Assembly (NCBI RefSeq): GCF_022201045.2
Contig: NC_068563.1
Location: 2,170,001 to 2,234,000 of the forward strand
Length of the DNA: 64,000 bases
Source of the DNA: Citrus sinensis
Lineage: Eukaryota > Streptophyta > Magnoliopsida > Sapindales > Rutaceae
Direction: 5' to 3'
Shown piece after piece: positions 4,932 to 61,092 of the stretch. Both the position numbers and the translations under genes were made by a program. How positions within the stretch are numbered: the first letter of the stretch is position 1; the number at the start of each line of letters is the position of its first letter. The notes beneath the pieces are model-generated. The model did not search any database. It was not told the DNA's origin and saw only the letters and a program-made list of their open reading frames with translations.

Positions 4932-5100
4932 CTATATATAAGGCCCCCACCTCACTCACTCTTCCATCATCATTTCCATCCATTTGAAATCACCTCTCTT
5001 CTCCTGCTCTCTCTCTCTCTCTCTCTCTCTCTCGAAACTCAACAGATTCAACCACAAGAGTCGAGAATTCACCTACAAGAAAAGAAAAAAATTCACGACT
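4932..5100 (+). promoter_or_regulatory. TATA box and leader of the ZAT10-like gene
   Basis: A consensus TATA box (CTATATATAA) is at 4932-4941. It is followed by a pyrimidine-rich region and a CT dinucleotide microsatellite at about 5007-5033, which would fall in the 5' leader. Transcription would be expected to begin roughly 25-35 bp after the TATA box. An in-frame ATG-less extension reaches back to 4984, but the family start is the ATG at 5101. Confidence 0.6.
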
Positions 5101-5904
5101 ATGGCTCTAGAAGCTCTAAACTCTCCTACAACAAACACCCACAATCATCATCCGTTTAGATACGAAGACTCATGGACTAAAAGAAGGCGCTCAAAACGAC
5201 CCCGTACCGACGAGTCCCCACCACTGCCACCAGCAGTAGCAGCTCCCACAGAAGAAGAGTACATGGCTCTCTGTCTCATCATGCTCGCCCGCGGTACCAC
5301 CACCGCCAACACCGCTCCAGCCGAAAGAACCCCATCCCTGGCGCCGGAACAGCGGCCGCAGGATCAGTTCCCGGAGCCGCCAAGTTTGAAACTTTCTTAC
5401 AAGTGCAGTGTGTGCAACAAGGCTTTCTCTTCTTACCAGGCCCTTGGTGGGCACAAAGCCAGCCACCGCAAGAACGCTGCTGACGCCTCGGCTTCTCCCA
5501 ACGCCGCAGCCGCCAGTGACGTCACCCCACCACCGTCAGCAACGGCGAGCAGCGGAAGCGGCGGTAGGACCCACGAGTGCTCTATTTGTCACAAGTCTTT
5601 TCCCACTGGACAAGCTCTAGGAGGCCACAAGCGGTGTCACTATGAAGGCGGCATCAACAACAACAACAACAACAGCAGCAGCAATAATAATAAAAGTAAT
5701 AATAATAGCGACGTTGTTACTAGTGGTAGCGCTAGCGTTGGTGCAAGTGCGGTGACGTTTTCGGAGGGCGGAGGGAGCAGCAGTCAACGTGGATTTGACC
5801 TGAACTTGCCGGCGTTGCCGGAGTTTTGGTCACAGGAAGTTGAGTCTCCGTTGCCGGCCAAGAAACCCAAGTTGTTGATGCACTACTCTTCGTTAGAAGA
5901 TTGA
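5101..5904 (+). CDS. ZAT10: ZAT10/STZ-like C2H2 zinc-finger transcriptional repressor
   Basis: Intronless gene of 267 aa; Arabidopsis ZAT10 has 227. Nuclear C1-2i zinc-finger repressor that acts in drought, salt, cold and oxidative stress responses. Visible parts in order: a basic NLS (KRRRSKRPR, residues 27-35), an L-box ([15 protein letters not shown], about 51-65), zinc finger 1 (C102, C105, H118, H122) and zinc finger 2 (C160, C163, H176, H180). Both fingers carry the plant-specific QALGGH core. A DLNL-type EAR repression motif is at 233-236, followed by a conserved tail ending in AKKPK and SLED. I chose the ATG at 5101 because MALEAL is the conserved family N-terminus. An Asn-rich run at about 186-202, encoded by AAC/AAT repeats, lengthens the linker and may vary in length between alleles. 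Confidence is high for the family and good for ZAT10 over ZAT6. Confidence 0.93.
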
Positions 5905-27605: not shown

Positions 27606-30600
27606 ATGAAGTTTATGAAGCTTGGATCAAAGCCGGACTCTTTTCAGGCTGATGGGAATAATGTTAGGTGAGATCTCTTGGTGCCTTACTTTCTCTGTAT
27701 TATTTTTTTCCCCTAGCTCTCAGATTTGCTGGATGCATTTCGGTTCCTTCTGCATAAATCTTAGTGTATGGTTTTCAGCTGCTTTTCTGTTCATTGAAAT
27801 TGAATGTTCCGTTCTAGTACCTTTCTCAATTTGTTGTTGCTTAACAAGGTGCTTTTATTATTTTTGCTATATGGATGGTATGATTTCCGAGTCTTTTCTG
27901 GAACGTCGTGTCTTATTATTTTCCTATTGCCTTATAATACAATATTGACCAGCTTTGATGCTGGGTTTGCCTTCTTAAACGCCTGTATGTACCTTGTCAG
28001 TATCAGGCCCTTTTTCAGGAATATTAAGATTTGAAATGTTATGGTCAGTATCTTGATACTCAAAGAGGAGATTGTTCCTGCTTCAAGCATTTGTCACTTT
28101 TCCAGATCAATATCCCCTGAGAACTGTAGATGTTTCTGTTTCCATTGTTGGAACAGAAAACCTGGTATTGGTTTTATGTAGCTCAAATTTAATCATCTAC
28201 TGGCACTATTTTGTTACCTGGATATGTCGGAATCTTAGACATTCATATAAGATGACTGACACTACTAAGGAAATAAGAATTTATCTTTTAACCATTTCAT
28301 TTGTTCGATGATTGCCTCCAACATTGTATGTATACAATGTCAGGGAGCTTGTAGATTGATGCTAAAACTAGGTATAAAAGCATTATGAGGCATGTCAACC
28401 CCGTATGTTCTGTTTGATTTATATCAGGAATGGTTGTTTCACCTCAGTCCTACAAGTGCACATAAAATTTATTCTTCTTTGGGAATGCTGACCAGTAAGT
28501 ATGACTGTTATGATTGTAAACTCTCCTTTTAAATTGTGATGCTTATATGAAAACTAATAATGCTGATGGAAACTTGGGAAATCATTGCTTCATCTTTCTC
28601 AAATTGTCAAATTTACTCAAAACCTTTGTTTTTATTTCACTTTAGTAATTCACTATAATCCGATTCTTTGATGTGGGCATTAGATAAAATGCTTTCAGAG
28701 TCATCTCCGATAACCTCTTTCACCTTATAAAGTTAAGCTTTGCAAGAAAATAATTGAAGGTCGAATTTATTTATTTATTTATTTGGAGGGAGGTTGAAGA
28801 AATTAGATGCACTTTATTCCTTATATTAATTTTCGGTTTACCTAGTTCATCATATTTTTGTGTAATTATGGAGAGATTTTGGTAACAGCATGAAGAAAAT
28901 ATTTGTTCACAGGTACGCTGCAAGTGAGTTGGCGACTGATGTTATTGTTGTTGTCGATGACATAAAGTTTCATCTGCATAAGGTATGATGTCTTTTTACC
29001 CGAAAGGGCCTTGTAGTATATGCTTTTGTATGCTTTGTAGAGCATATGCTCATCTTATGCGACTAAGAAAATGAAAAAAAAAATGGTTTGCAGTTTCCCC
29101 TGCTGTCAAAAAGTGCCTGCTTGCAGAAGTTGGTAGCAACCGCCAATGAAGCCAACAACAACGAAGTTGACATTTCTGATATTCCTGGTGGGCCTTCTGC
29201 ATTTGAGACTTGTGCCAAATTCTGTTACGGCATGACTGTTACCCTCAATGCATACAATGTTGTGGCGGCTCGATGTGCAGCCGAGTACCTGGGAATGCAT
29301 GAAAGTGTTGAGAAAGGGAATTTCGTTTACAAGATTGATGTCTTCATCAGCTCTAGCATTTTACGCAGTTGGAAAGATTCAATCATTGTTCTACAGACAA
29401 CCAAGTCTCTGTTACCAATGTCTGAGGAACTGAAGGTAGCCAGCCATTGCATTGAAGCCATAGCTACCAAGGCCTGTGTTGATGTGTCTAAAGTTGACTG
29501 GTCATACACGTACAACCGCAAGAAACTTCCAGAGGAAAATGGGAATGATCCAAACTGGAATGGTGTCAGAACACGAGCAGTGCCAAAGGACTGGTGGGTT
29601 GAGGATTTGTGTGAGCTTGAGATTGATTTTTATAAGCGCTGCATAATGACTATTAAAACCAAAGCCATACTTTCTAATGAAGTGATTGGCGAGGCCTTGA
29701 AAGCTTATGCTTACAGAAGGTTATCAGGCTTCAGCAAGGGTATGATCCAATCTGGAAATGTGGGAAAGTACCGATCCATTGTTGATGCAGTTGTATGGCT
29801 GTTGCCTGCCGAGAAAGGCAGCGTCTCTTGCAGTTTCTTGCTCAAGTTGTTGAAAGCAGCCATTATCGTAGATTCGGGAGATATGGTCAAGGCGCAGCTG
29901 GTTAGAAGAATAGGACAGCAACTAGAGGAGGCCTCTGTAAATGATATTTTGATAAGAGCACCTGAAGGGGAAAGTACTATGTATGATGTTGACATGGTGC
30001 ACAAAATAATTGAAGAGTTTTTGATGCAAGATAAGAACGCTGAAACTGATGTACCAGAAGAACACGAGGTTGTAGAGATAAGAAGACCGGGTGTTTTATC
30101 TGATGCTTCCAAGCTAATGGTGGCAAAACTTATGGATGGGTACCTCACTGAAATTGCAAAGGATCACAATCTACCTGTAGCAAAATTTGTTGATCTTGCC
30201 AAGTTGGTGTCAGGTATCTCCAGGCCCACTCATGATGGGCTTTACCGGGCCATTGATATGTACCTCATGGTAAGAGTTGTTTGAAAGGTTTGTTTACTCG
30301 TTGTGCACATGCAGTTAGTATTTTTGTGACCTACAATGTCCTGTTTGCTCTTGCATTTTCAGGAATATAACATTTCTTTGTATTTGGATTTTCATGGTGT
30401 AAGTTTTGACCTCTATTAATGGCTGTTGCACTTGACTAATTTAGGTATATTAGTTGTGACAAAAAAAGTTAGGACATCATTACATAGTTGCTGATTACAT
30501 CCTAAACTGTGCCCTGATGCAGGAGCATCAAGCAATTAGCAAGAGCGAAAGGAAGAAAATATGCAAGCTGATGGACTGCAGGAAGCTATCAGTTGATGCC

Positions 30601-31074
30601 TGCATGCATGCTGTCCAAAATGAGAGACTTCCATTACGTGTTGTTGTGCAGGTACTCTTTTTCGAGCAAGTCAGGGTGGCTGCCGCGTCGGGCAGTAGCA
30701 CTCCTGACCTACCTAGAGGTCTGAAGGATTTAAACAATGGTTCTCGTAGGAGCTCAAGGTCAGCAGCAACCAATCCAGAGGAAGATTGGGATGCTGTAGC
30801 CACAGCTGAGGAGCTGAAAGCCCTAAAAGGGGAGCTAGCTGCCTTAAGGTTAAGCAATGGAGTGGGAGGGAGTGAGAGAAATGGAAGTGACAAGGCTGCC
30901 ATAACTAAAATGAAAGGGTTGCTCAAGTCTAAGAAGATCTTTGCAAAGCTCTTTACAAGCAAAGGAGGACAAGGTGAAAACAGTGGCTCAGATTCATCAG
31001 AGAGTCTCGGTTCTGCCATCCTGGAAGAAACTAAATCCACACCTTCCAGAAACAGAAGGAATTCAGTTTCTTAG
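27606..31074 (+). CDS. NPY: NPY-type NPH3/BTB protein (auxin-mediated organogenesis)
   Basis: Four coding exons: 27606-27667, 28913-28982, 29094-30269, 30523-31074, all with GT-AG borders; 619 aa. It begins MKFMKLGSKPD, the conserved NPY family start. The BTB/POZ fold spans about residues 27-130 (DVIVVVDDIKFHLHKFPLLSK is split by intron 2). The NPH3 domain runs from DWWVEDL (about 210) through the signature YDVD (341-344) to MDCRKLS and NERLPLRVVVQVLFFEQ (about 453-487). A short coiled coil (EELKALKGELAALRL) is at 532-546. NPY proteins are plasma-membrane partners of AGC kinases such as PINOID; they control PIN-dependent auxin transport in organ formation and root gravitropism. The tail ends RRNSVS, like the C-terminal phosphoserine sites used by NPH3 relatives for 14-3-3 binding (inference). 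Which NPY paralogue it is cannot be settled here. Confidence 0.92.
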
Positions 31075-35930: not shown

Positions 35931-35941
35931 ATCCATTTGCC

Positions 35942-36207
35942 TATATATATTATACACACACACACCCACACCCACACACACACACACACCCGCACACACC
36001 CAAATACACTCATACCCTCAAAATCTTCTTTCCTTGTTGCTACGAGTCTACGACTATTCTTTCATTCTCATCTCTCTCTCTCTCTCCCTTGCTTGCAATC
36101 CAAGAAACCAATCCAAGCTTTATGCTTTCTTTATAATTATTTATTTAATTTCATTTTTATTTTTGCTTCTGTTTCGTATGACGTGTGCTGAGCGAAAAAA
36201 AATCAAC
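35942..36207 (+). promoter_or_regulatory. TATA box and microsatellite-rich leader of the LBD gene
   Basis: A TATATATATTA box at about 35942-35952 is followed directly by a CA microsatellite (about 35953-36000) and then by a CT run (about 36071-36087), both in the likely 5' leader. An in-frame ATG at 36178 lies ten codons before the conserved start at 36208. Confidence 0.5.
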
Positions 36208-37290
36208 ATGAGTTGCAATGGGTGTAGAGTTTTGAGAAAAGGTTGCAGTGAAAACTGCATGCTTCGTCAAAGCATTCAATGGATCGGCACCCCACAAGCT
36301 CAAGCAAACGCCACCGTTTTTGTTGCCAAGTTCTTCGGCCGCGCCGGCCTCATGTCCTTCATCTCCGCCGTCCCCGAAACCCAACGTCCCTGTAAGTTCC
36401 TCTAACACAGCACAAATTTATATTTTTAACTAAAAAATCCTTTTTTTCTTCAAGATTTTTCGGCGGCTACCAGACTTTAAAAAAAATGACAGAAAGCAAG
36501 TGGGTGTTTTTATTTTAGCCAAAAACAGCAGTTAAATTTCAACCATTATTTCATTATTGAGAAGAAAAGGAAAAATTCTCTGAAAAGACAATGCCTTGCT
36601 GTGGGGATTTTATGTTAAAATCGGTAAAAATATTATCTAAATTTCAAGAACATTCATATTATATCAATAAGAATTAATAATTGAATAAACCAAAGCCTAC
36701 TTGAATTTTAATGCTTATTATATTTTAGAATCGTATATAATTCATCTTTCAGATCAACAAGTTATCATAAAAAATTCCTTTCTGCTACCCTCAAGTTTCT
36801 CAAATTATCCTTGGTATCATCATCTGAAATCCATTATGCATGTTTTTTTTGATAAATTTTATTTTCAGCATTGTTTCAGTCGCTGTTATATGAAGCGGTG
36901 GGAAGAACAGTGAACCCAGTGAGCGGCGCCGTGGGGCTTCTGTGGACAGGAAACTGGAACGTGTGCCAGTCGGCGGTGGAGAGAGTTCTCTGCGGCGGCC
37001 CGTTGCAGCCGCTGCCTTGCTCACTGGCGCCGGAACTTGATGACGTGTCAGAATCTGCCGTGAACTGTACCAACAATAGTCCGAAGGACGTCATCACTCC
37101 GCCACCGAAGAGGAAGGCTGTTTCTGATTTTCAAGATGATCTTCATCTGGGTCTGAAGCCTTGTTTGCCAGAGAAGCTTAGGGCGGAGACGCCGTCGGAG
37201 GAGTCCGAAACGACGACGTCGGGAACCGGGTCTGATAATTGTTGCTCTGAGGTCGCAGGTGAAAAGAAGCTTTTGAGACTCTTCCTCTGA
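36208..37290 (+). CDS. LBD38: Class II LOB-domain protein, LBD37/38/39 type
   Basis: Two exons, 36208-36391 and 36869-37290, join in codon TCA and give 201 aa. The LOB zinc-finger-like block is C3-X2-C6-X6-C13-X3-C17, followed by the GAS block ([19 protein letters not shown], about 38-56) and the conserved [16 protein letters not shown] and [16 protein letters not shown] stretches. The class I leucine zipper is absent, as expected of class II. The tail has a KRK basic cluster (142-144), an LxLxL repression-like motif (LHLGL, 153-157) and a terminal KKLLRLFL that matches the family end. LBD37/38/39 are nuclear repressors of anthocyanin synthesis and nitrate-responsive genes. I chose MSCNGC as the start; the upstream in-frame ATG (36178) would add ten residues. 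The exact member among 37, 38 and 39 is uncertain. Confidence 0.88.
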
Positions 37291-43100: not shown

Positions 43101-46100
43101 TGTCTTGCTGAAACATGGTATAGGTGGATGAAAGTTTTCCCTATGATTAATCAGAGAATAAAAATTATTAAGAGAATATAAGTCTGTAAATTGAAAATCA
43201 TTATAGTTCTTGCTGCTTTTCTTGAGTTCTATAAGTAAATAGTTGTTTATCTTACTTCAGTCTTGTAGCAATGTAAGTGGATGGTTTTTTTACTACAAAC
43301 TCCAATTACAAATCCAATGGGGAAATTAAGAACCAGACACACAGCATATTGTGAAGCATGTAAAACATAATCATATGACAAACATAAGATTTCCTATTAT
43401 AAATGCTTGCAGGGGTTTTCATTTGAAAAGATTAAAGCTCTAAATCTTACCTGTCCCTTGAGGATGGAAGTCAATTTCAACTTTTTCTTTACCAACAGTA
43501 ACTTGATTCTTTTAAGAGTGACTGAATTCCGTAATTCTGAGATTGTTACCCATGCATTCCAAATATTTTTCTGGTAAAAAGAAAATAATTACATAATCAA
43601 TAGAAGGAAAAAAATGTACATACAACTGGTTCCGTTTCACAGGTGGATGGAGAACTTCTAAAATCAAGGACATTTGATATTTAACACAAGCAAAAACTAT
43701 CAAGAAATACAAATCAGAAACCAGAGTCAGTGTATTTGTTCGAAATCTCTGTAGCATTTGGTACAAAAGCTACTAATGGTCAGCCTGGATAACCCTAAAA
43801 TCAAGCATGAGCCAACCCCGCTAATTTGCTAAGTGTAGCTTTAACAGAATCTATTATTTGACCAAACCCAGCCATGTCCACTAGATTGTTCATCAGAAAG
43901 ACCTAAGTAGAAATAAATACCTTCAACCGTCTATTGAATTCCTATGTCCGAGGGGGAATTGATTAAAACCTTAAATCTTAAGTTGAAGCGATGCATGTGA
44001 TTTCTCATGAATCTTTCCATCATATTCTTTAGACAGACGAATGTTAGGCATAACCTGCCTCCTTAAGTAATGCTAGGATACTAACAGATTACTTTGACTG
44101 TTCACGTGCAAAAGTTTGATAAAACAGAAATATGTTATCATTCTTTCTAAGCAGTTATTTCTCTTGTAATATCATGATAACAAGCTGTACAGGGAGGCAC
44201 TACCCTATAGACCAAAGGTAGCCTTATGTTGGTATTTTGCTTTATTAGAAGCAAATACCAATTCTGAAGAACAAGATCCTTGACTTAAGGCCACCAAAAA
44301 AGGCATAGATCAGAAAGAATCCATATTACCAGCCAACAATTTTAAGTGAGATGTTCAACTTGTGTAACAAGGAAACAAAAAGATCATAATCCACTATTTT
44401 AATCTGGAATTTTTTTTTTCAATTGCTTTGAAATAATAAGATTTATATTTTCAAAACTAACACTCATATCAACATTGACCCAATGTCCACTTGTATCATA
44501 TAAGTGACACAAGTAAAAGCAGACATGCAATACTCCAAATTACATATGCCTGGAAAGAATATTACTTTTGAGTATTAGATGTTCATGTAAAACACTTATG
44601 AATCCTCTCTACAACAACAATTAACCAGCTACAATTACCTCTGTCAAGTCAATGTTCATGTAGAACACTAGCCACATCATTATCAATTGCTAACACATAT
44701 TAGCCATAAAAAAAATGAATGAGAAGATTTTCTGAATGTCATCAGTGGCCAATCGATAATTCAAATAAAAATCAATATTGATGGGACCTATGAATCTTCT
44801 CTACAACAAGAATTAACAAAAACAAGGCACTGGTTAAAAAATAATCCAAAAATCATGATTCAGACAAACAGATGGGGCTCTATGTCTGCAATCTTCCATT
44901 TGTTTTCCTAATCATTGAAAATTTTATTGAACCATATAGTTCTATGGGAAGAAAAGTCTAATGGCAGTGGAAATCAGAAAATTCATCAATCTTATGAAAG
45001 GCAACAAAGAGATGTTACGTAGAAAGCACCGAACTACCAGCCAAGATTGGTAAGATAAAGCTCACAGTTCCACTTGAGGAAGTTTAGGAAATTACAGTTA
45101 CAACTAAGTACACCTATTACACAGAACACCAACAGCAATATAGTCCTTCATTAAGACAATGCAGACTCATTTGTTGAGGCATACATGGTCTGGAGTTTTG
45201 CTCTAGACGGTTTTGGCCTCAAACAATCATAGACAGTACACATAGGATACTTATGAGTTCCCACAAGTATCAATTTAACAAGTCGACCCACAAAAGTCCA
45301 TCTAATTTTTTCTCATAACTTAGAGAAAATGTTGTGTCGCATATCAGACTGCTTCCCAAGGTTAGTACAAGCAACAAATTCCACCTGCCGGAGAAAGCAA
45401 TAAAATGCCTATGCTACCTGGCAAGACATCAGACTGAAAAAAACCACCCTTCTAATGCAAGTTCAAGAAATTATAGTTAAAAATTAAATATCAGAAAAAA
45501 TTGTATATGCATAGTAAATAATTGTGCAATCCTTCCACATAAAATGCAGTGTCTTTTCTTAAGGGCAAAGCATTTTAGAGTGAAAATCTGTCTTTAGCTG
45601 CTATCAAACTCTCCATTCACCTAAAGACTTATAATCACCAAACAACAGTGTGAGTCACCTTAAGGTCCTTCCTTCTCCAAATTCTTCACTCCACGAATTC
45701 TCAGATACCTATATGCTGGCTTAAGAAATACAAATTCCTCCCAGGATGTCATATGAAATAAATAAATTGCATCGTTTATTGTTCCAAATTTAGACCTATT
45801 TGTCAAAACAACTATATAATGCTGAACTGGATAATGATAACAAAACAAGTGCAACGAATATGTATTTTTCCTTCTAATTTAACCATGCAATCCATTCCAC
45901 GGGCAAAATAATCTTTGCTGTTATAGTTCTTTTTCTCAAAGCAGTATAAAGTAGATGAGCATCCAAGATAAAACTCAATGAGTGCAAATCAAACTTAAGT
46001 AATCAACAACTGAAAACACAAAAACATACAAGTAAAGACCACACCTCTGCATTCAGTTGCTGCACCATGAAGGTAGCATCTGCTCGAGCATTTACAAACC

Positions 46101-47388
46101 GCCATTGCAAGTAACGGTTATGCAGAAGCCTCAACATATGCGCATCAACAATTCGATCCTCTCCCATCTTGCCTCTCTTTAAATCCACAGAAAAACTAAG
46201 AATCGAAGGTGTGTTCCTAGAATTCCCACTCAAAATGCCACCAACTCCATTTCTCACTCTAGCAGGACTAGGAATGCCCCTTGATGGGGACATACAAGGA
46301 GTATTCCAACTCTTATTAGGAGATGAAGGCCTATTGGCTCCCCTTATAGGTGAAGCCATAGTTCTTGGAGGCGTAGACACTGCACTATCACTTGAAAATC
46401 TTTTTGATTGCAAAAACTTGGATGGGTTACTTGTTCTTGAACCAGGACTGGTCGATAAAGGTGACCCTGGATCTTGTAATCTCCTCAACCGGCTATTAGT
46501 TTCTTGCCAGAATCTAGCAGAAACAATAATGCCACGAGCACCATTTTTCATTCGTGAAGCAAGAGCACCACCAGATTCTGGTACCCCAGAAGTGTTGGTG
46601 CTACCAGATGACACACTATCAGTATCATCAGAAGTTACAAGATCACAAGACTCACTCACCAACAAATTGCCATCTTTATTTTGCTTAGCATTATCTAAGT
46701 CCAAGTTCAATCTACTCTCATTTTCAATCAAAGATTGGTTCAGTGACTTAGCCACCGCCCCAGATCCAAACCCAACGAACTTCTTACCCTCCACACTACA
46801 ATCCAAACTCCTTGATAAACTCGGATTCCCTTGCCGGCTCCTTCCCGGCCAAGGTTGATCTCTCACCGGCGTCCCTCTTCTTCTCTCAGGAGTTGCCTTA
46901 GCTTTAGTCTTACTAACAGGAAGTGAAAAGGCCTCACCTTGAAAAGAAACAGATAGGCTCCTAGTTGAAGTAATAAGCATCTTTGTTGCTGTTGAAAGCT
47001 CTTGGCTTTGCTTCGAGCTTGGAACTGGGGTAGTAGCCCTTGGACTAGAACCAGTCACAGGCCTCCTTCTATCAACAGATTGTGATCTCTTAGGCCCCAA
47101 AGCAGGAAATGTGCTTTGTAAATTAGATGAATTTGTTGAACGAGACAACAGTGGAGAAGAAAATCTCTGGCTCTGACTGTGACTCTTTGCTGTTGCTGCT
47201 GCCGTTGTTGAAGATGAAGATGAAGATGAAGAAGGAGAAGGTGACAAATATCTTGAAGAGACAAGTCTTCCTCTGGGTTTCCTTGTACCATTAACACCAG
47301 AAGCACTACGTGCATTGTCTTTTTCAGAAGGCAAAAGGGGAGGCCTTGAGCTTGTCGTTGGGTTCTCATCAGAAATGGCAGCCACCAT
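40193..47388 (-). CDS. QWRF2: QWRF motif-containing protein 2 (augmin subunit 8-like, microtubule-binding)
   Basis: I assembled six coding exons on the minus strand: 47388-46045, 43570-43451, 42463-42347, 42183-42094, 40491-40384 and 40273-40193. All are phase 0 with GT-AG borders; total 619 aa. The start MVAAIS, the [11 protein letters not shown] and [23 protein letters not shown] blocks, the [21 protein letters not shown] block and the QWRF signature (428-431, in [12 protein letters not shown]) mark the DUF566 family. The C-terminal exons carry the conserved helical part ([37 protein letters not shown]). The basic, Ser/Pro-rich N-terminal two thirds is the microtubule-binding part in this family. 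QWRF proteins act in microtubule organisation, in floral growth and as augmin subunit 8 variants. Intron 1 is 2.5 kb; intron 4 hosts a hAT element. A CT-rich leader lies upstream (to about 47720). Confidence 0.92.
40335..40357. repeat. Poly-G tract in the last QWRF2 intron
   Basis: An unbroken run of about 18 G (40335-40352) then C and GGGG on the plus strand; poly-C in the QWRF2 transcript. It could form a G-quadruplex in DNA. Length is unreliable in most sequencing methods. Confidence 0.8.
40771..41389. mobile_element. Second hAT-like MITE, inside QWRF2 intron 4
   Basis: The 619-bp insertion starts TAGGGATGGGCACGGG and ends TGCCCACCCCTA, which pair as inverted repeats of the hAT type. Subterminal GGGTTGGGTCGGG words in both orientations resemble those of the element at 31599-32961 but are not identical. 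The flanks ACCTGGTA and CCTAGGTA are compatible with a decayed 8-bp target duplication. The interior holds a 225-bp-period duplication: GTGAACAAAAATAAATTAAT at 40933 and 41158. Confidence 0.65.
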
Positions 47389-50300
47389 TATCAGAGGAAC
47401 TGTAGAAATAAAATAAAAATTCTTTCTTTCCCTTCACATTGCCTCTTGTGAAGTCCAAGAATGTTACTTTATCAGTCCTTTTTTTAATTCTTCTTTTCAC
47501 TTTAACCCAGAAAGCATTCGATTTTGTTCAGGGCAAGAACCTGCTGAAAAAAATAAATGAGAGCTGAAGAAGATTAATAGATATGAGAGAAACAAAAACG
47601 GGTGGGTTAGTGAAAGGATTTGGCAATTCGGGAAACAGTGAAAACAACAGTGCTCTTGTGATTTCTATGAGTGATAGAGAGAGAGAAATAGAGAGTGTGA
47701 GAGTAGGTGAGGTGAGATGAAGAGAGGCTTTTGGGTTTGGGATTTTCTGAATCTTTTAGAGGGATGTTAGCTTAGTTTAATCATATTTTTCAGTTAATGA
47801 AATCTTAATTATAGTTTATCAAAGTGTATTTATGTCTTTGTTATTATTTCAACCCAATAATTTGTCTTAAAAAATTCAATAATTATTAAATCGTTTAAAT
47901 CATTGTTGTATTAAAGAGAAAGGGGTTTTTTTTAACATTATATTTTAAATGTACTCATAATATGAAATGACAATTTCTAGTGCGAATGCTCGTATCTTTT
48001 AAGACGTGGATTTGCGATATATTATATATGTCTATATAGCATATTAGTATTTTTATTTAATTAATATATCATATGGTACGTATGGTGAATTCGTATTTTA
48101 AAAAATACAAACATCTTTACTTAAAAATAATTATATTACTATAAATATAAAAAAATGGTCACAACCTCCTACATCACTTGTGGAATAACGTAACCCAAAT
48201 ATATAAATTTATAATAAATTGGAGGTGCGTGGATCATGCTAGTAAGTGATTACCAATGACGAATAATTTACATTAATGATAGAACGATACACAAAATTAT
48301 TAATTCCAAAATTTTCTTAAGGTTTGCAAGAAATATGCAGTATAAAGTTGTCATATATCGGCAAAATGTAGGTTGAGTCACGGGCAAAAATTTTTATCCT
48401 ATACAATAAAACTGGTAAATTCTTGAGAAAATGAGGGAGAAGTTCAACATAACTAAGGATATTTTTAGTTTTTTTTTCATATATTTAATATTGATTATGT
48501 GTGTTTTTCATGGACATAAAAAAGGTAGATAAAAGAATAAAAATAACGTATAATTTGCACATCAAAAAGTTTAAAAGAGTAACAATAAAAGAACTCTATA
48601 TTAATGTGACTATTGAATACACCTTTTTATCGACCACAATCGTTACGTTGTAACATTGATACAAACTCACTATTGATTATTTTTTGTACAATATTATTGT
48701 TATTTTTACTATTCTAAAAAATGGGTTATAAATATTTATGTGATACAAATCCAATAGTTTTATCCTTCATCATTATATTAAATTCCTATGAACACGCTAA
48801 TTTAAATTTTTTTTTTCAAAAGATAAACCCACTATTCTAATTTCTAACATAGAGATTTTGAAAGAAAATAGATTATCTTCTAAATGGGTAATTACAAGGA
48901 AGAATGCAAAACTCAAATCATTATCACTTCTATTTAAGGGTATGTGATAAAGATTACCTTGAGGAAAGAAATGAATTAGCTAACCTCCATGAAAGGAGCT
49001 CTCAAGCAAATTAGAAGTTGATGTTGTCAATGAATATTGAAAGAATGAACAGCACAGCCTAGCAAATAAAAAGCTTATTATAACGAGGGAACTAAAAAAA
49101 AAAAAAACAATTATTGCAAACTAAGTTATCACAACTTGATTTATTAATTAATTTTAGTTTTAATTAAGATGTTATGTCTCTTTTGGTCTCTCTCAGTTTA
49201 CCAATCTTGCTTTCAACGCTTTTTTTTATTTTTCTCCTTCATAGAAAATATCACCATCCTCTTCTCTCTGTCTTAACTCTTTGCTAGCTTGATCTTAAAA
49301 ACTTGTACAAATTTGCAAATAATTTTTCTTGGCCAAAGTCATAATAAAATGTTGAATAAGTTATTTAAATTTAGAAATGGTAATGGATCAAGACAAAGTT
49401 GAAGGAAGTTTCTTCTCATCTTTCAATATTTCTATCTTTATTTTAGGGAGGGAAAAAAAAAAAAAGATTCACATACTCTTAAAGTTTGCTCTAGTATACA
49501 TGTAGGCCCTTCACATTTTAAGAATACATTTTCATTAGTGTTTTACATTCGACAATAAAGAAATTGTAAAAATTATTTATCATGAACTATAAGACAATAG
49601 AATCGATATCACGAAAATTTTAATCGAAAAATAACTCTTAAATTGGATAAATAAAATTTTTATCATATCGTCAAAATTACTTAATAAAACAAACTCATGG
49701 GAATTGGATTATTTTCAAAATCTTAATTTAATTTCAAATATGGTATTAAGATTGCTTCAAAGCCAAAATTTAGTTGACAAAATGTGACTTTGATAGAAAG
49801 TGAAACAATGATAGTCCACTACAAGTAAATGGAGAGGTGAGGGGTCGTATTATTATACTCACTACTTTTTTTTTTTTTGTCTTTTTTCATATCTTTGAAT
49901 TAATCATGAAAAACAGGTGACAAAATTGATGTTTCAATCGTCACTGTATACATCAAAATATAAGTCTTAATTAAGTTTATTGTACAATGATTAACGTGTC
50001 TAATCATACGTAAATTCAATATATCAATGGAGTTTCAATGTATAGACAATAATTTTCATCTCATTTTTACAAAAAGCCGATCAAGATTCATACTTTATTA
50101 TAAAAAAAAACTATTTGTTTAAATTTATTAAATTAAATACACTTTTCTTGTTGTTAAATTATGTATTTTTAAAATTTTATCATCATTATTATTATCCTTT
50201 GTTGATAGTAAAAGAATCAAAAACAGGAGACCGAAGCTAGACAAAAGAGAGACAGGACAAAAATGAGCAAGTTCGTACATTGCTGCCCGAAGGTAAACCA

Positions 50301-56013: not shown

Positions 56014-57114
56014 TTAGCGGTACTGCCAGGAAAAAAAAAAAAATCAGAGAATGAGCAACACCCAAGGATCAATGGTCTGAAAGAGGTAGAAGAATATATC
56101 TGAAGGATACCTTAACAAAACCAATCTCCTTGGCATTGCTACGGAAGCATTGTCTGCAGCACATGAGCCCATACTTCCTGATTATTGCATGAGGGTTCCC
56201 ACAAACCCGGCTGTGAAAAACAAAGAACAGACAAACAAAGTCAGAATCCATATATCTTCACAGAATCCTTCCATCAAGAATAACAGCCAGCACTGCTAAT
56301 GCCGTTATGAGAGGACAAGAAATACTGAAAGAGATTGACGAATTATTACTAGATCTTCTGCCTAAAGAATTAGTTGAAGCACAGACAATTTCTCATGCAG
56401 TTCCAATTTTCATAGAGATTATCGGGTACAAAGTTGTCAATAAAAGGTAACCACGAGAACCTTCAAGTAAAAACACATCTTAAAACGCGTAACAATATAA
56501 GCACACAGCCAAAAGGCTTTCTCCCAATGAAGTGTTCAATTAAAAGAACATAAGCTTTAATCCTAAAACACTTAAAACAACAAGCATCATCAAAATAAAC
56601 ACAAGCCAGTCAAAATGACTAAGGTAGCACACATGTTGGCATTTGTGAATGAAATTGAAATCAAGCAACACCTGCCTCCAAACAACATAATATTTTAAGT
56701 TTTTTGTTTAAAAAAAAAAACTAAAACCAACTAATTTACACAGATTCCCACCACGATTCTAATCAGATGAAGTAATTAAAAACATCTATCACAATAATAA
56801 TATCAAATCGAAGATCAGAAAAAGCAAACGTAAGAACAAAATATCCATACCTTTTACTCAAAACCTACAATATAACAAATTAGCACGCATGATGTTAATC
56901 GACACTTAACAATAAGAAAAAAATTTCAATCTTCAATTATTCGGGGATTTAACATACTCAGGGCTATAAAATCATTCCAATTTCTCATTGTCCAATATTA
57001 AATCAGCAAATCAAAAAACAGTAAAAGTAGAAGTTACAAACTTTTGACTTACCAAGCGCGAGAACCGGGCCCATAAGTCTTGGGGTGAGAGTTCCAAACG
57101 TTGGAGTGACCCAT
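56014..57114 (-). CDS. RPS29: 40S ribosomal protein S29 (uS14), copy 2
   Basis: Same structure as copy 1: exons 57114-57053, 56210-56111 and 56022-56014, 56 aa, with the same zinc-ribbon cysteines and a nine-base last exon. Exon lengths (62, 100, 9) and intron phases are identical to copy 1; the introns are much diverged. The N-terminus reads MGHSNVW. Upstream are a telo-box (AAACCCTA, 57174-57181) and two abutting site II elements (TGGGCT 57269-57274, TGGGCC 57275-57280), the standard signature of plant ribosomal protein promoters. Its promoter faces that of the ZnF-UBP gene. Confidence 0.95.
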
Positions 57115-57173
57115 GATCGATTGTTTTCTTCTTCTTTAACAAAGAGAAGAGCCGGTTCGCTTAAGCTTGTGTA

Positions 57174-57760
57174 AAACCCTACAATCTGCCGAGGAATTTA
57201 TATGAACGAAGAAAAGTGCGTATTTATACTACGCAATTTAAACTCTGATATGGATTTTAATTGTAATTTGGGCTTGGGCCGGACCTGACCTAAATTGTTG
57301 GACAAGTATGATACTATTTTCGGATCCCAAATTAATCATGCTCTCGTAAAAATATTTTTCTCAGGAAAATGCTTCTCAGCGAGAATGCTGAGAGAATGCC
57401 AAGAGAAACGGCATTCTTTTGCTTTCTCTTTGCTCCTTTTGCTTTTTCTTGCGCCTTTTGCTTTTTCTTGCGCCTTTTGCTTTTTCCACCTTTTTTACTC
57501 TTTCTACCCCACATTTGATTCTAGCTAAACGAAATTACTCTTCACGTGAAAGGGTTGAGTTGGGATTTTTCTCTCATTTCACAAGCAGAGAGAACAGTCG
57601 GTAAGGAATAATCATGCTCTCGTAAAAATAGTTTTTAAACAACCTAAAGTTAGCTGGAAAATTATGATTTTTTCTTCACCCGGTAGAACGCAGCTGAACA
57701 GTCGTGACTCTCTAAAAGCCTTGCCAAATCCTCAAACTTGAAAATCTCGGTCGACTCGTT
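57174..57760. promoter_or_regulatory. Divergent promoter between RPS29 copy 2 and the ZnF-UBP gene
   Basis: The 646 bp between the two start codons holds the telo-box and the site II pair of RPS29 copy 2. It also has a 19-bp tandem repeat (CCTTTTGCTTTTTCTTGCG at 57435 and 57454, partial at 57473), and two repeated phrases: AATCATGCTCTCGTAAAAAT near 57336 and 57610, and CGGTAAGGAATAATCAT near 57598 and 57786. The second phrase spans the exon 1 donor of the ZnF-UBP gene, so part of its start region was duplicated into the promoter. Confidence 0.55.
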
Positions 57761-60700
57761 ATGGCGACCTATTCCTCAAAACTGCCGGTAAGGAATAATC
57801 ATTGCTAATGATCAAAACGTCACCGTTATATAATATCTTTTTTTTTTTTGTCTGAATTCGTTTGTCTCAGGAAAACGGACCCGAAGACGAGGATGAGATG
57901 ATGATCGGAGGGGAATTAGGTTGGGTGAGACATCTGGCCTCTTGTGATCACCTCGTTGCTTCCTTGTCGTCTGATCTCGCTCGCATTCCAACTCCCGATA
58001 CACCCTGCAACATGTTAGCCAAACCCTTTAAACACGTCAATTTATATAATTTATTTTTGCTTGATTTCATTTCATGGAAATTCGAAAAATTCATCATATA
58101 ATTATAATATAGAAAAAGAGGGAGGGAAAATATAAACTGGGTATATTTATTGTCAAATCTTGAGTCCAACTAATGTGTCATAACTATTGGTTGCCGCATG
58201 TAAGTTATTTATTTTACAACACAAGCAATGAGTAACGCAGTGATGATGCTCACGTAACCTGTGGAGTGATTTGCATGTATGAAGGTGCAAACACCCGAGG
58301 GGAAACTGGCTATGTTTGTGTTGCAAGGAAGTGCTTTGCAGCCGTTATGTGAACAAGCACATGCTTCGGCATTACCGGGAAAAAAACCATTCTGTAGCAT
58401 TAGACTATAGGTATGACCATGAACTTTGATCGTTGTTGTATTTTCCCATGTTTATCTCTCGTTGATTATGTTTGAATTGGAAGGGTGTTCTTAACTTTTA
58501 TATATTGTGATTTATAAATACCTTGTTTTTGGCTAAGCAGTGACCTGTCAGTTTGGTGTTTCGCCTGCCATGCATATTTAAATGCTCAACCGATTCTGCA
58601 ACTGCGACCTGTTCATGAGACATCTTACGTTCTGAAATTTGGTCGAGCCCTCCCTTTTAATACGGGACAGCATCCTAAGGTTAAAGAGGATGATGAGATG
58701 ATGCTCGGAGCAGAATCGGGTTCGGTGAGACATCTGACCTCTTGTGATCACCTCGTTGCTTCCTTGTCGACTGATCTTGCTCGCATACCAAATCCCGATA
58801 CACCCTGCAACAGGTTAGCCAAACCCTTTAAACACGGCAATTTAAATAATTCATCTTTGCTTGATTTCATTTCATTGAAATTGGAGAAATTCATCATGCA
58901 ATTATAATATAGAAAAAAGTGGGGGAAAATGGAAACTTGATATATTTATTGTCAAATCTTGAGTCCAACTAATGTGTGATCAGTATTGGTTGCCGCATGT
59001 AAGTTATTCATTTTACAACACTAGCAATGAGTAACACAATGAAGATGCTCGCGTAACCTGCGGAGTGATTTGCATGTATGAAGGTGCCAACACCCGAGGG
59101 GAAACTGGCTATGTTTGTGTTGCAAGGAAGTGCTTTGCAGCCGTTATGTGAACAAGCACATGCTTCAGCATTACCAGGAAACAAACCATTCTGTAGCATT
59201 AGGCTATAGGTATGACCATGAACTTTGATCGTTGTTGTATTTTCCCATGTGTATGTCTCATTGATTCTGTTTGAATTGGAAGGGTATTCTTAACTATTAT
59301 ATATTGTGATTTATAAACACCTTGTTTTTGGCTAAGCAGTGACCTGTCAGTTTGGTGTTTCGCCTGCCATGCATATTTAAATGCTCAAGCGATTCTGCAA
59401 CTGCGACCTGTTCATGAGACGTCTTACGTTCTGAAATTTGGTGAAACCCTCCCTTTTAATACGGGACAGCATCCTGAGGTTAAAGAGGACGACGAGATGA
59501 TGCTCGGAGCAGAATCGGGTTGGGTGAGACATCTGACCTCTTGTGATCACCTCGTTGCTTCCTTGTCGACTGATCTCGCTCGCATACCAAATCCCGATAC
59601 ACCCTGCAACAGGTAAGCCCTTTAAACACGTCAATTTTAATATTTTATTTTTGCTTGATTTCATTTTCATGCAAATTCGAGAAATTCATCGTATAATTAT
59701 AATATATAATTATAATATAGAAAAAGAGGGAGGGAAAATATAAACTGGGTATATTTATTGTCAAATCTTGAGTCCAACTAATGTGTCATAACTATTGGTT
59801 GCCGCATGTAAGTTATTTATTTTACAACACAAGCAATGAGTAACGCAGTGATGATGCTCACGTAACCTGTGGAGTGATTTGCATGTATGAAGGTGCCAAC
59901 ACCCGAGGGGAAACTGGCTATGTTTGTGTTGCAAGGAAGTGCTTTGCAGCCGTTATGTGAACAAGCACATGCTTCGGCATTACCGGGAAAAAAACCATTC
60001 TGTAGCATTAGGCTATAGGTATGACCATGAACTTTGATCATTGTTGTATTTTCCCATGTTTATCTCTCGTTGATTATGTTTGAATTGGAAGGGTGTTCTT
60101 AACTTTTATATATTGTGATTTATAAATACCTTATTTTTGGCTAAGCAGTGACCTGTCAGTTTGGTGTTTCGCCTGCGATGCATATTTAAATGCTCAACCG
60201 ATTCTGCAACTGCGACCTGTTCATGAGACATCTTACGTTCTGAAATTTGGTCGGGCCCTCCCTTTTAATACGGGACAGCATCCTAAGGTTAAAGAGGACG
60301 ATGAGATGATGTTCGGAGCGGAATCGGGTTGGGTGAGACATCTGACCTCTTGTGATCACCTCATTGCTTCCTTGTCGTCTGATCTTGCTCGCATACCAAA
60401 TCCCGATACACCCTGCAACAGGTTAGCCAAACCCTTTAAACACGGCAATTTAAATAATTCATCTTTGCTTGATTTCATTTCATTGAAATTGGAGAAATTC
60501 ATCATGCAATTATAATATAGAAAAAAGGGGGGGAAAATGGAAACTTGATATATTTATTGTCAAATCTTGAGTCCAACTAATGTGTGATCAGTATTGGTTG
60601 CCGCATGTAAGTTATTCATTTTACAACACTAGCAATGAGTAACACAATGAAGATGCTCGCGTAACCTGCGGAGTGATTTGCATGTATGAAGGTGCCAACA

Positions 60701-61092
60701 CCCGAGGGGAAACTGGCTATGTTTGTGTTGCAAGGAAGTGCTTTGCAGCCGTTATGTGAACAAGCACATGCTTCAGCATTACCAGGAAACAAACCATTCT
60801 GTAGCATTAGGCTATAGGTATGACTATGAACTTTGATCGTTATTGTATTTTGCCATGTGTATGTCTCATTGATTATGTTTGAATTGGAAGGGTGTTCTTA
60901 ACTTTTATATATTGTGATTTGTAAACACCTTGTTTTTGGCTAAGCAGTGACCTGTCAGTTTGGTGTTTCGCCTGCCATGCATATTTAAATGCTCAAGCGA
61001 TTCTGCAACTGCAACCTGTTCATGAGACTGCTTACGTTCTGAAATTTGGTCGGGCCCTCCCTTTCCTTATGGGAGAGCATCCTAAGGTTTAA
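57761..61092 (+). CDS. Protein with four tandem ZnF-UBP (ubiquitin-binding) domains
   Basis: Ten exons: 57761-57787, 57871-58013, 58285-58410, 58541-58813, 59084-59209, 59340-59612, 59893-60018, 60149-60421, 60692-60817, 60948-61092. All borders are GT-AG, the frame is open throughout, and the product has 545 aa. After a short acidic start, a 133-residue module occurs four times. Each has the ZnF-UBP ligand set; in module 1 these are C34, H36, C55, C58, C67, C70, C75, H82, H86, H92, C105 and C108 (add 133 per module). The pattern (CDHL, CxxC, NWLCLCC, CSRYVNKHM, DLSVWCFAC) is that of HDAC6/USP zinc fingers, which bind the free C-terminal GlyGly of ubiquitin. The Arg and Trp used for this are present (R77, W104); one binding-pocket Tyr is Phe (F106). 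There is no deacetylase or protease domain. Exon 1 (MATYSSKLP) is the least certain part. Confidence 0.82.
58014..60947 (+). repeat. Four-unit tandem repeat of the ZnF-UBP module, with dimer periodicity
   Basis: Exon b of the module starts at 58285, 59084, 59893 and 60692: steps of 799, 809 and 799 bp. Units 1 and 3 resemble each other, and so do 2 and 4, more than neighbours do. For example exon b reads HMLRHYREKNHS in 1 and 3 but HMLQHYQETNHS in 2 and 4, and intron words (GGGTATATTT versus TGATATATTT) follow the same split. The two-unit period is exactly 1608 bp. Introns are as well conserved as exons, so the copying is recent. Confidence 0.88.

Follow-up and report, generated by a model that had tools for sequence, protein, structure and literature searches.

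The window analysed here is a 64,000-nucleotide stretch of the Citrus sinensis genome (assembly GCF_022201045.2, contig NC_068563.1, positions 2,170,001 to 2,234,000 of the forward strand), and its main subject is a gene at positions 57761-61092 on the + strand, which encodes a protein made of four ZnF-UBP modules in tandem. ZnF-UBP domains normally occur singly beside a catalytic domain, as in HDAC6 or USP5, and read the free C-terminus of ubiquitin. The citrus gene has ten exons and a coding sequence of 1638 nt running from ATG to TAA, which gives a protein of 545 amino acids (aa); all its introns have GT-AG borders and the exon phases are in register. The exons match those of two public C. 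sinensis proteins, both named KPL70_022408 (P0001 and P0003), letter for letter, which bears out the ten-exon model of the initial annotation. The layout of the gene and of the genomic repeat within it is as follows, each module being divided into an N-terminal (a), a middle (b) and a C-terminal (c) part.

57761..57787, + strand: exon 1, start codon and MATYSSKLP; start exactly as in C. sinensis P0003
57871..58013, + strand: exon 2, module 1 part a
58285..58410, + strand: exon 3, module 1 part b; alternative start at 58342; short in P0003, long in P0001
58541..58813, + strand: exon 4, module 1 part c and module 2 part a in a single exon
59084..59209, + strand: exon 5, module 2 part b; alternative start at 59141; short in P0001 and P0003
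59340..59612, + strand: exon 6, module 2 part c and module 3 part a
59893..60018, + strand: exon 7, module 3 part b; alternative start at 59950; short in P0003, long in P0001
60149..60421, + strand: exon 8, module 3 part c and module 4 part a
60692..60817, + strand: exon 9, module 4 part b; alternative start at 60749; short in P0001 and P0003
60948..61092, + strand: exon 10, module 4 part c and stop codon
57884..61079, + strand: four tandem genomic units of about 800 bp, introns included, starting at 57884, 58684, 59483 and 60292

A Pfam scan recognised zf-UBP (PF02148) in four stretches of the 545-aa protein (E 1.7e-69, 230.4 bits against a gathering cut-off of 22.7), and the modules are spaced by 133, 133 and 133 aa, in agreement with the four tandem modules and the 133-aa period described initially. 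The description of the protein as standing alone also holds, as neither a histone deacetylase nor a UCH/USP domain, nor any other catalytic family, was found in the same scan (E 0.01). Five other Pfam families appear in the output, none with an individually passing stretch and two above the cut-off in sum; they look like summed weak repeats. Since part c of one module and part a of the next lie together in one stop-free exon of 273 nt, the joining of the modules is independent of the predictor's choice of introns. No further copy was found elsewhere in the window, where tblastn with the protein gave only matches with E values of at least 2.2.

The 12 zinc-ligand columns are identical across the four modules when these are read in their long form. 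Each b exon also contains a second, in-frame acceptor, which lies 57 nt downstream of the first, and its use removes 19 aa from the module, including ligands 4 to 7 of the 12. In P0003 (469 aa) all four modules have the short form, while P0001 (489 aa), which starts 18 residues later, has it in modules 2 and 4. The initial statement that all 12 ligands are kept is therefore correct for the long splice form, but not for the two public models, in which 4 of the 12 are lost in four or two modules, respectively. The short form was seen in 5 of 240 collected proteins, all from Citrus; three of these are single-module proteins, so the alternative acceptor is not confined to the array. Among them, P0226 equals the single-module protein P0122 minus the same 19 residues, and the mean predicted local distance difference test (pLDDT) score of its AlphaFold model is 59.4, compared with 82.2 for P0122, so that the short module is predicted to be unfolded. 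PMC9832951 describes how sweet orange was annotated in phased form with the help of RNA sequencing. The KPL70 models presumably derive from that annotation, although the name 'KPL70' does not occur in the paper's text.

The repeat extends to the DNA, in which the units are spaced by 799, 809 and 799 bp. Units 1 and 3 (96.8% identity over the whole unit) and units 2 and 4 (96.7%) are the most alike, the other four pairs having 92.5-93.6%, a pattern explained by a step from one unit to two followed by a step from two to four. Each unit has private differences, and 24 of 128 amino acid columns vary among the citrus modules. Intron divergence between units ranges from 0.004 to 0.106 depending on the pair and the intron. 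For units 2 and 4, intron A differs by 0.004 and intron B by 0.054, against a nonsynonymous divergence (dN) of 0.048; this mismatch points to either uneven homogenisation or faster change in the exons.

The closest known domain to the citrus module is the C-terminal ZnF-UBP of HDAC6 (PDB IDs: 3gv4, 3phd and 5g0f), and the module shares the fold of that domain. In contrast to HDAC6, the citrus protein carries four copies without a deacetylase domain, with Ser at the position of G1154 and Phe at that of Y1184. USP5 and USP13 carry two ZnF-UBP domains. Like the citrus protein, they and certain sirtuin-domain proteins thus have more than one ZnF-UBP per chain, but in their case two modules accompany a catalytic domain (for the sirtuin-domain proteins according to precomputed Pfam lists). 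No catalytic domain is found by Pfam in the array, which is therefore not regarded as simply another relative of USP5/USP13. Combinations of a sirtuin domain (PF02146) with two ZnF-UBP were seen in P0013, P0014, P0017, P0022 and P0275, and of ADP-ribosylglycohydrolase (PF03747) with ZnF-UBP in P0070, P0076 and P0088.

The homology lists comprise the best 120 of 190 and the best 120 of 218 matches. The second, from the search with a single module, is filled by a flowering-plant protein of about 150 aa with one ZnF-UBP module, whose sources include Persea, Acorus, grasses and eudicots. Databases frequently call this protein 'histone deacetylase 6', and zf-UBP is its only listed Pfam domain. Its C. 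sinensis representative, P0122, has 80% identity to module 3 of the array; it differs from the array in having one module instead of four, and proteins of its type mostly have Phe at both of the pocket positions discussed below. Module matches were also seen in longer proteins: according to precomputed Pfam lists, Cornus P0009 and P0011 have the same module with MATH (PF22486, PF00917) and Spatholobus P0012 has it with PF06839, and in Quercus P0010 it occurs in a protein named RICESLEEPER 2 by its source.

The initial annotation knew of no other protein with the architecture of the citrus one. This architecture is not unique, since public protein sets contain arrays from eight other eudicot lineages, making nine in total among 292 collected proteins and the window protein. 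An array was taken to have at least two modules in tandem, each with 12 ligands and of the type found in the plant single-module protein; the citrus protein has four. The numbers of intact 12-ligand modules per array are 4 in Citrus, 5 in Acer (EZV62_011144), 5 in Pyrus (LOC103939385), 3 in Eucalyptus, 3 in Pistacia, 3 in Populus, 2 in Hevea, 10 in Punica (Punica granatum LOC116205453) and 3 in Acacia, and several of the non-citrus arrays carry additional modules that are cut or damaged. While the other arrays have the same type of module in tandem, they mostly differ from that of citrus in period, junctions and position in the tree, and their precomputed Pfam lists hold names besides zf-UBP. 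The usual period lies between 107 and 136 aa depending on the array; it is 133 in both Citrus and Acer, which have different junction sequences.

The relations between arrays and single-module proteins were examined in a tree built from 33 array modules together with 27 proteins of the single-module kind. The rows of the tree and of the column scan described below are module matches of at least about 95 aa (at least 90 in a first tree) and include only 5 of the Punica modules; Dipteronia P0243, with one whole and one partial module, was left out of the trees and the scan. Eucalyptus globulus P0163, entered in the first tree as a single-module protein, grouped within the array clade of Eucalyptus. 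This protein has a further, partial module and was left out of the main tree. Each array forms its own clade beside a single-module protein presumed to be of its own family, the support for this join ranging from 88/31 in Acer and 94/45 in Punica up to 100/97 in Eucalyptus. The sister of the citrus modules is the plant single-module protein (98/90 and 98/91 in two trees). The fewest changes between the single and the array state on the tree is nine. One clade of all array modules was rejected by the approximately unbiased (AU) test (p 2.9e-54), the first tree having been viewed before the test. One clade of the arrays together with five other derived copies, in a tree from which 6 module rows of the main tree were left out, was likewise rejected (p 3.95e-32), two of the added rows being long branches. 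From this we infer at least nine independent origins, each array having been formed from the single-module gene of its own lineage.

The two conserved positions with the most convergent change in arrays, columns 78 and 106 by the numbering of P0122, correspond to Y1156 and Y1184 of HDAC6, which are contacts of the ubiquitin tail. The four citrus modules all keep the equivalents of R1155, Y1156, W1182 and Y1189. Among the 120 listed matches, the pocket Trp (120/120), the distal Tyr (120/120) and the Arg (118/119) are kept almost throughout. Phe is found at both the 1156- and the 1184-equivalent in 108 of 113 readable single-module proteins (from the 119 proteins P0122-P0240) and in all 25 readable ones of the 26 proteins P0245-P0270, while every array has Tyr at one or both. 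Going by the majority of the modules used, 7 of the 9 arrays have Tyr at the 1156-equivalent (Eucalyptus in 2 of the 3 modules of the tree and 2 of the 4 of the protein), and 5 of the 9 have it at the 1184-equivalent; in Pyrus, the nearest single-module protein also has Tyr at the 1156-equivalent. Outside the arrays, Tyr at the 1184-equivalent was seen in 4 of 113 single-module proteins.

When the 76 conserved columns are ranked by change to one and the same residue, the 1156- and 1184-equivalents come first and second; the third-ranked column changes in 3 of the 9 lineages, and a column has on average 0.88 departing lineages. Column 132, a conserved Phe, has become Ile, Ile, Tyr and Leu in arrays, so that loss of constraint alone does not yield Tyr. 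On a tree built without the two Tyr columns, the presence of either Tyr tracks the array state in 7-8 of the 9 pairs that are independent of each other, and no pair shows the reverse (p 0.008-0.016). The pockets of the arrays thus appear to have shifted back, from Phe to Tyr, towards the state seen in HDAC6.

The citrus protein is a stand-alone array of four ZnF-UBP modules, and on balance we lean towards the reading that two rounds of in-frame tandem duplication within a copy of the plant single-module gene produced it and that it binds free ubiquitin C-termini multivalently. The four HDAC6-type modules would together hold the free tails of ubiquitin, as on unanchored chains, perhaps with high avidity. 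Judging from the residues, Tyr in place of Phe at the 1156- and/or 1184-equivalents would strengthen or restore binding of the GlyGly end. Choice of the 57-nt acceptor would unfold a module through the loss of 4 ligands, and splicing could in this way set the number of active modules from 0 to 4. Having no catalytic domain with which to process free chains, the protein would instead tether or shield them. More tentative, and rather doubtful as a whole, is the wider proposition that flowering plants have on at least nine occasions turned one single-module protein into a multivalent sensor of free ubiquitin chains, with up to ten modules multiplied in frame, a pocket returned to Tyr and, in citrus, a valency of 0-4 set by splicing.

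Several observations weigh against these readings. In the citrus modules themselves the 1184-equivalent is Phe. The two columns were noticed before they were tested, that is, the convergence was examined after the fact; the sign tests for single columns are borderline (p 0.031-0.0625 for the 1156-equivalent and 0.031-0.219 for the 1184-equivalent), and among all 148 columns the 1184-equivalent ties with three less conserved ones, the 1156-equivalent still being first. Some array modules have lost pocket residues: in module 1 of Acer the Arg is replaced by Trp and the distal Tyr by Cys, Ser stands at the 1184-equivalent of two Acer modules, and the distal Tyr has become Phe in one module of Eucalyptus and two of Acacia. 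The idea that the change to Tyr is exclusive to arrays is weakened by derived copies of other kinds (14 of 25 such records have one module in more than 230 aa, i.e. are long or fused). Tyr is present at the 1156-equivalent in 6 of the 9 readable non-array copies (2 from Cornus, 1 from Quercus, 1 from Spatholobus and 2 from Prunus), the other three having Leu (Morus) or Phe (Coptis, Melastoma), and Tyr at this first position therefore goes with derived copies more widely. At the 1184-equivalent, none of the 7 readable long or fused copies has Tyr. In addition, the short acceptor is used in two modules of one retrieved public model and in all four of the other, and the all-long 545-aa form is absent from the retrieved sequences, whose two clusters contain 14 and 4 members beyond those listed. 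Finally, the pairwise ratios of nonsynonymous to synonymous divergence (dN/dS) among the citrus modules are 0.73, 0.90, 0.98, 1.00, 1.01 and 1.05, and values of about 1 mean that amino acids outside the key sites change at a near neutral rate.

These last points also favour an explanation which is possible, though we doubt it, namely that the array is a drifting duplicate without function, in which the frame is open by chance and an AAG acceptor, a less favoured one in plants than CAG, often fails and leaves unfolded modules. The introns of units 1 and 2 have diverged to the same order as the coding sequence (0.093 and 0.054), a long branch separates the citrus array from the single-module protein (0.26-0.31 compared with 0.04), and the ligand-deleting acceptor used by both retrieved models comes with the low model confidence of the short form given above for P0226. 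However, the four modules contain no stop codon or frameshift, and the 24 variable columns all lie outside the 17 sites of ligands and pocket (P 0.022). The selection pattern in itself would be expected both of a module conserved at its core alone and of a young duplicate under weak constraint, but drift does not predict that the same two pocket positions become Tyr in arrays of nine lineages.

It is unlikely, in our view, that the modules fold as ZnF-UBP but have ceased to read ubiquitin and form a multivalent scaffold for a different partner, as ZnF-UBP domains of the USP39/Sad1 type do in the spliceosome. The Trp, distal Tyr and Arg of the pocket are retained in the listed matches in the proportions reported above, and the arrays have changed mostly towards the pocket of HDAC6, both of which argue against such a role.

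Less probable still is a single ancient array in a Tyr-bearing paralogue, later homogenised within each species, in which case the nine origins and the convergence would be illusory. Tandem repeats are prone to homogenisation, the uneven divergence along citrus units 2 and 4 is what conversion would leave, and Tyr at the 1156-equivalent is common to the arrays and some other derived copies. On the other hand, both versions of a single clade were rejected by the AU test (that with the derived copies including two long branches), most periods and junction sequences differ by lineage, with Citrus and Acer sharing the length of 133 and not the sequence, and each array adjoins a single-module protein of its presumed family; moreover, conversion by a local single-module gene would tend to erase the Tyr.

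That the array is an artefact of gene prediction or assembly, with separate single-module genes joined in silico, is very improbable. In its favour, tandem units as similar as these are open to mis-assembly or to fusion by gene predictors, truncated or damaged modules occur in several of the other arrays, which are predicted proteins, and the public citrus models may share the assembly of the window and hence provide no independent check of it. Against it, the 273-nt exons require no intron choice, the units have private differences and the public models use the same exons.

Around the array, a divergent gene at 57053-57114 on the - strand, presumably ribosomal protein S29-like, starts about 650 bp upstream and encodes 20 residues before a GT donor, so that a promoter region may be common to it and the array gene. 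No match was obtained when the - strand open frame 57006-57197, which is in another reading frame than this divergent gene, was scanned with Pfam. By eye, ggtaaggaataatcatgctctcgtaaaaat or parts of it recur within 57333-57800, near 57330, 57600 and the exon 1 donor, and short pyrimidine-rich repeats lie at about 57400-57500, upstream of the array. A Pfam scan of 10 open frames identified the following other genes in the window.

4942-5901, + strand: C2H2 zinc finger gene
29067-31071, + strand: NPH3 family gene
35932-36402, + strand: LOB domain gene
46006-47433, - strand: QWRF family gene

In the open-licence literature searched, neither ZnF-UBP arrays of plants nor a comparable plant protein dedicated to reading unanchored ubiquitin was found to be reported, and the passages of PMC3281883 and PMC10298659 considered contain nothing on such arrays. 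The recurrent array architecture and the repeated change of the pocket are regarded as new, no paper on either having been found in that literature. The single-module protein, widespread in flowering plants, and its recurrent arrays, in which the same two contact positions have changed repeatedly, constitute a natural experiment: Phe/Phe single modules set against Tyr-bearing arrays would reveal whether the sensing of free chains drove the evolution of avidity and pocket chemistry. The arrays are also candidate high-affinity traps for free ubiquitin.
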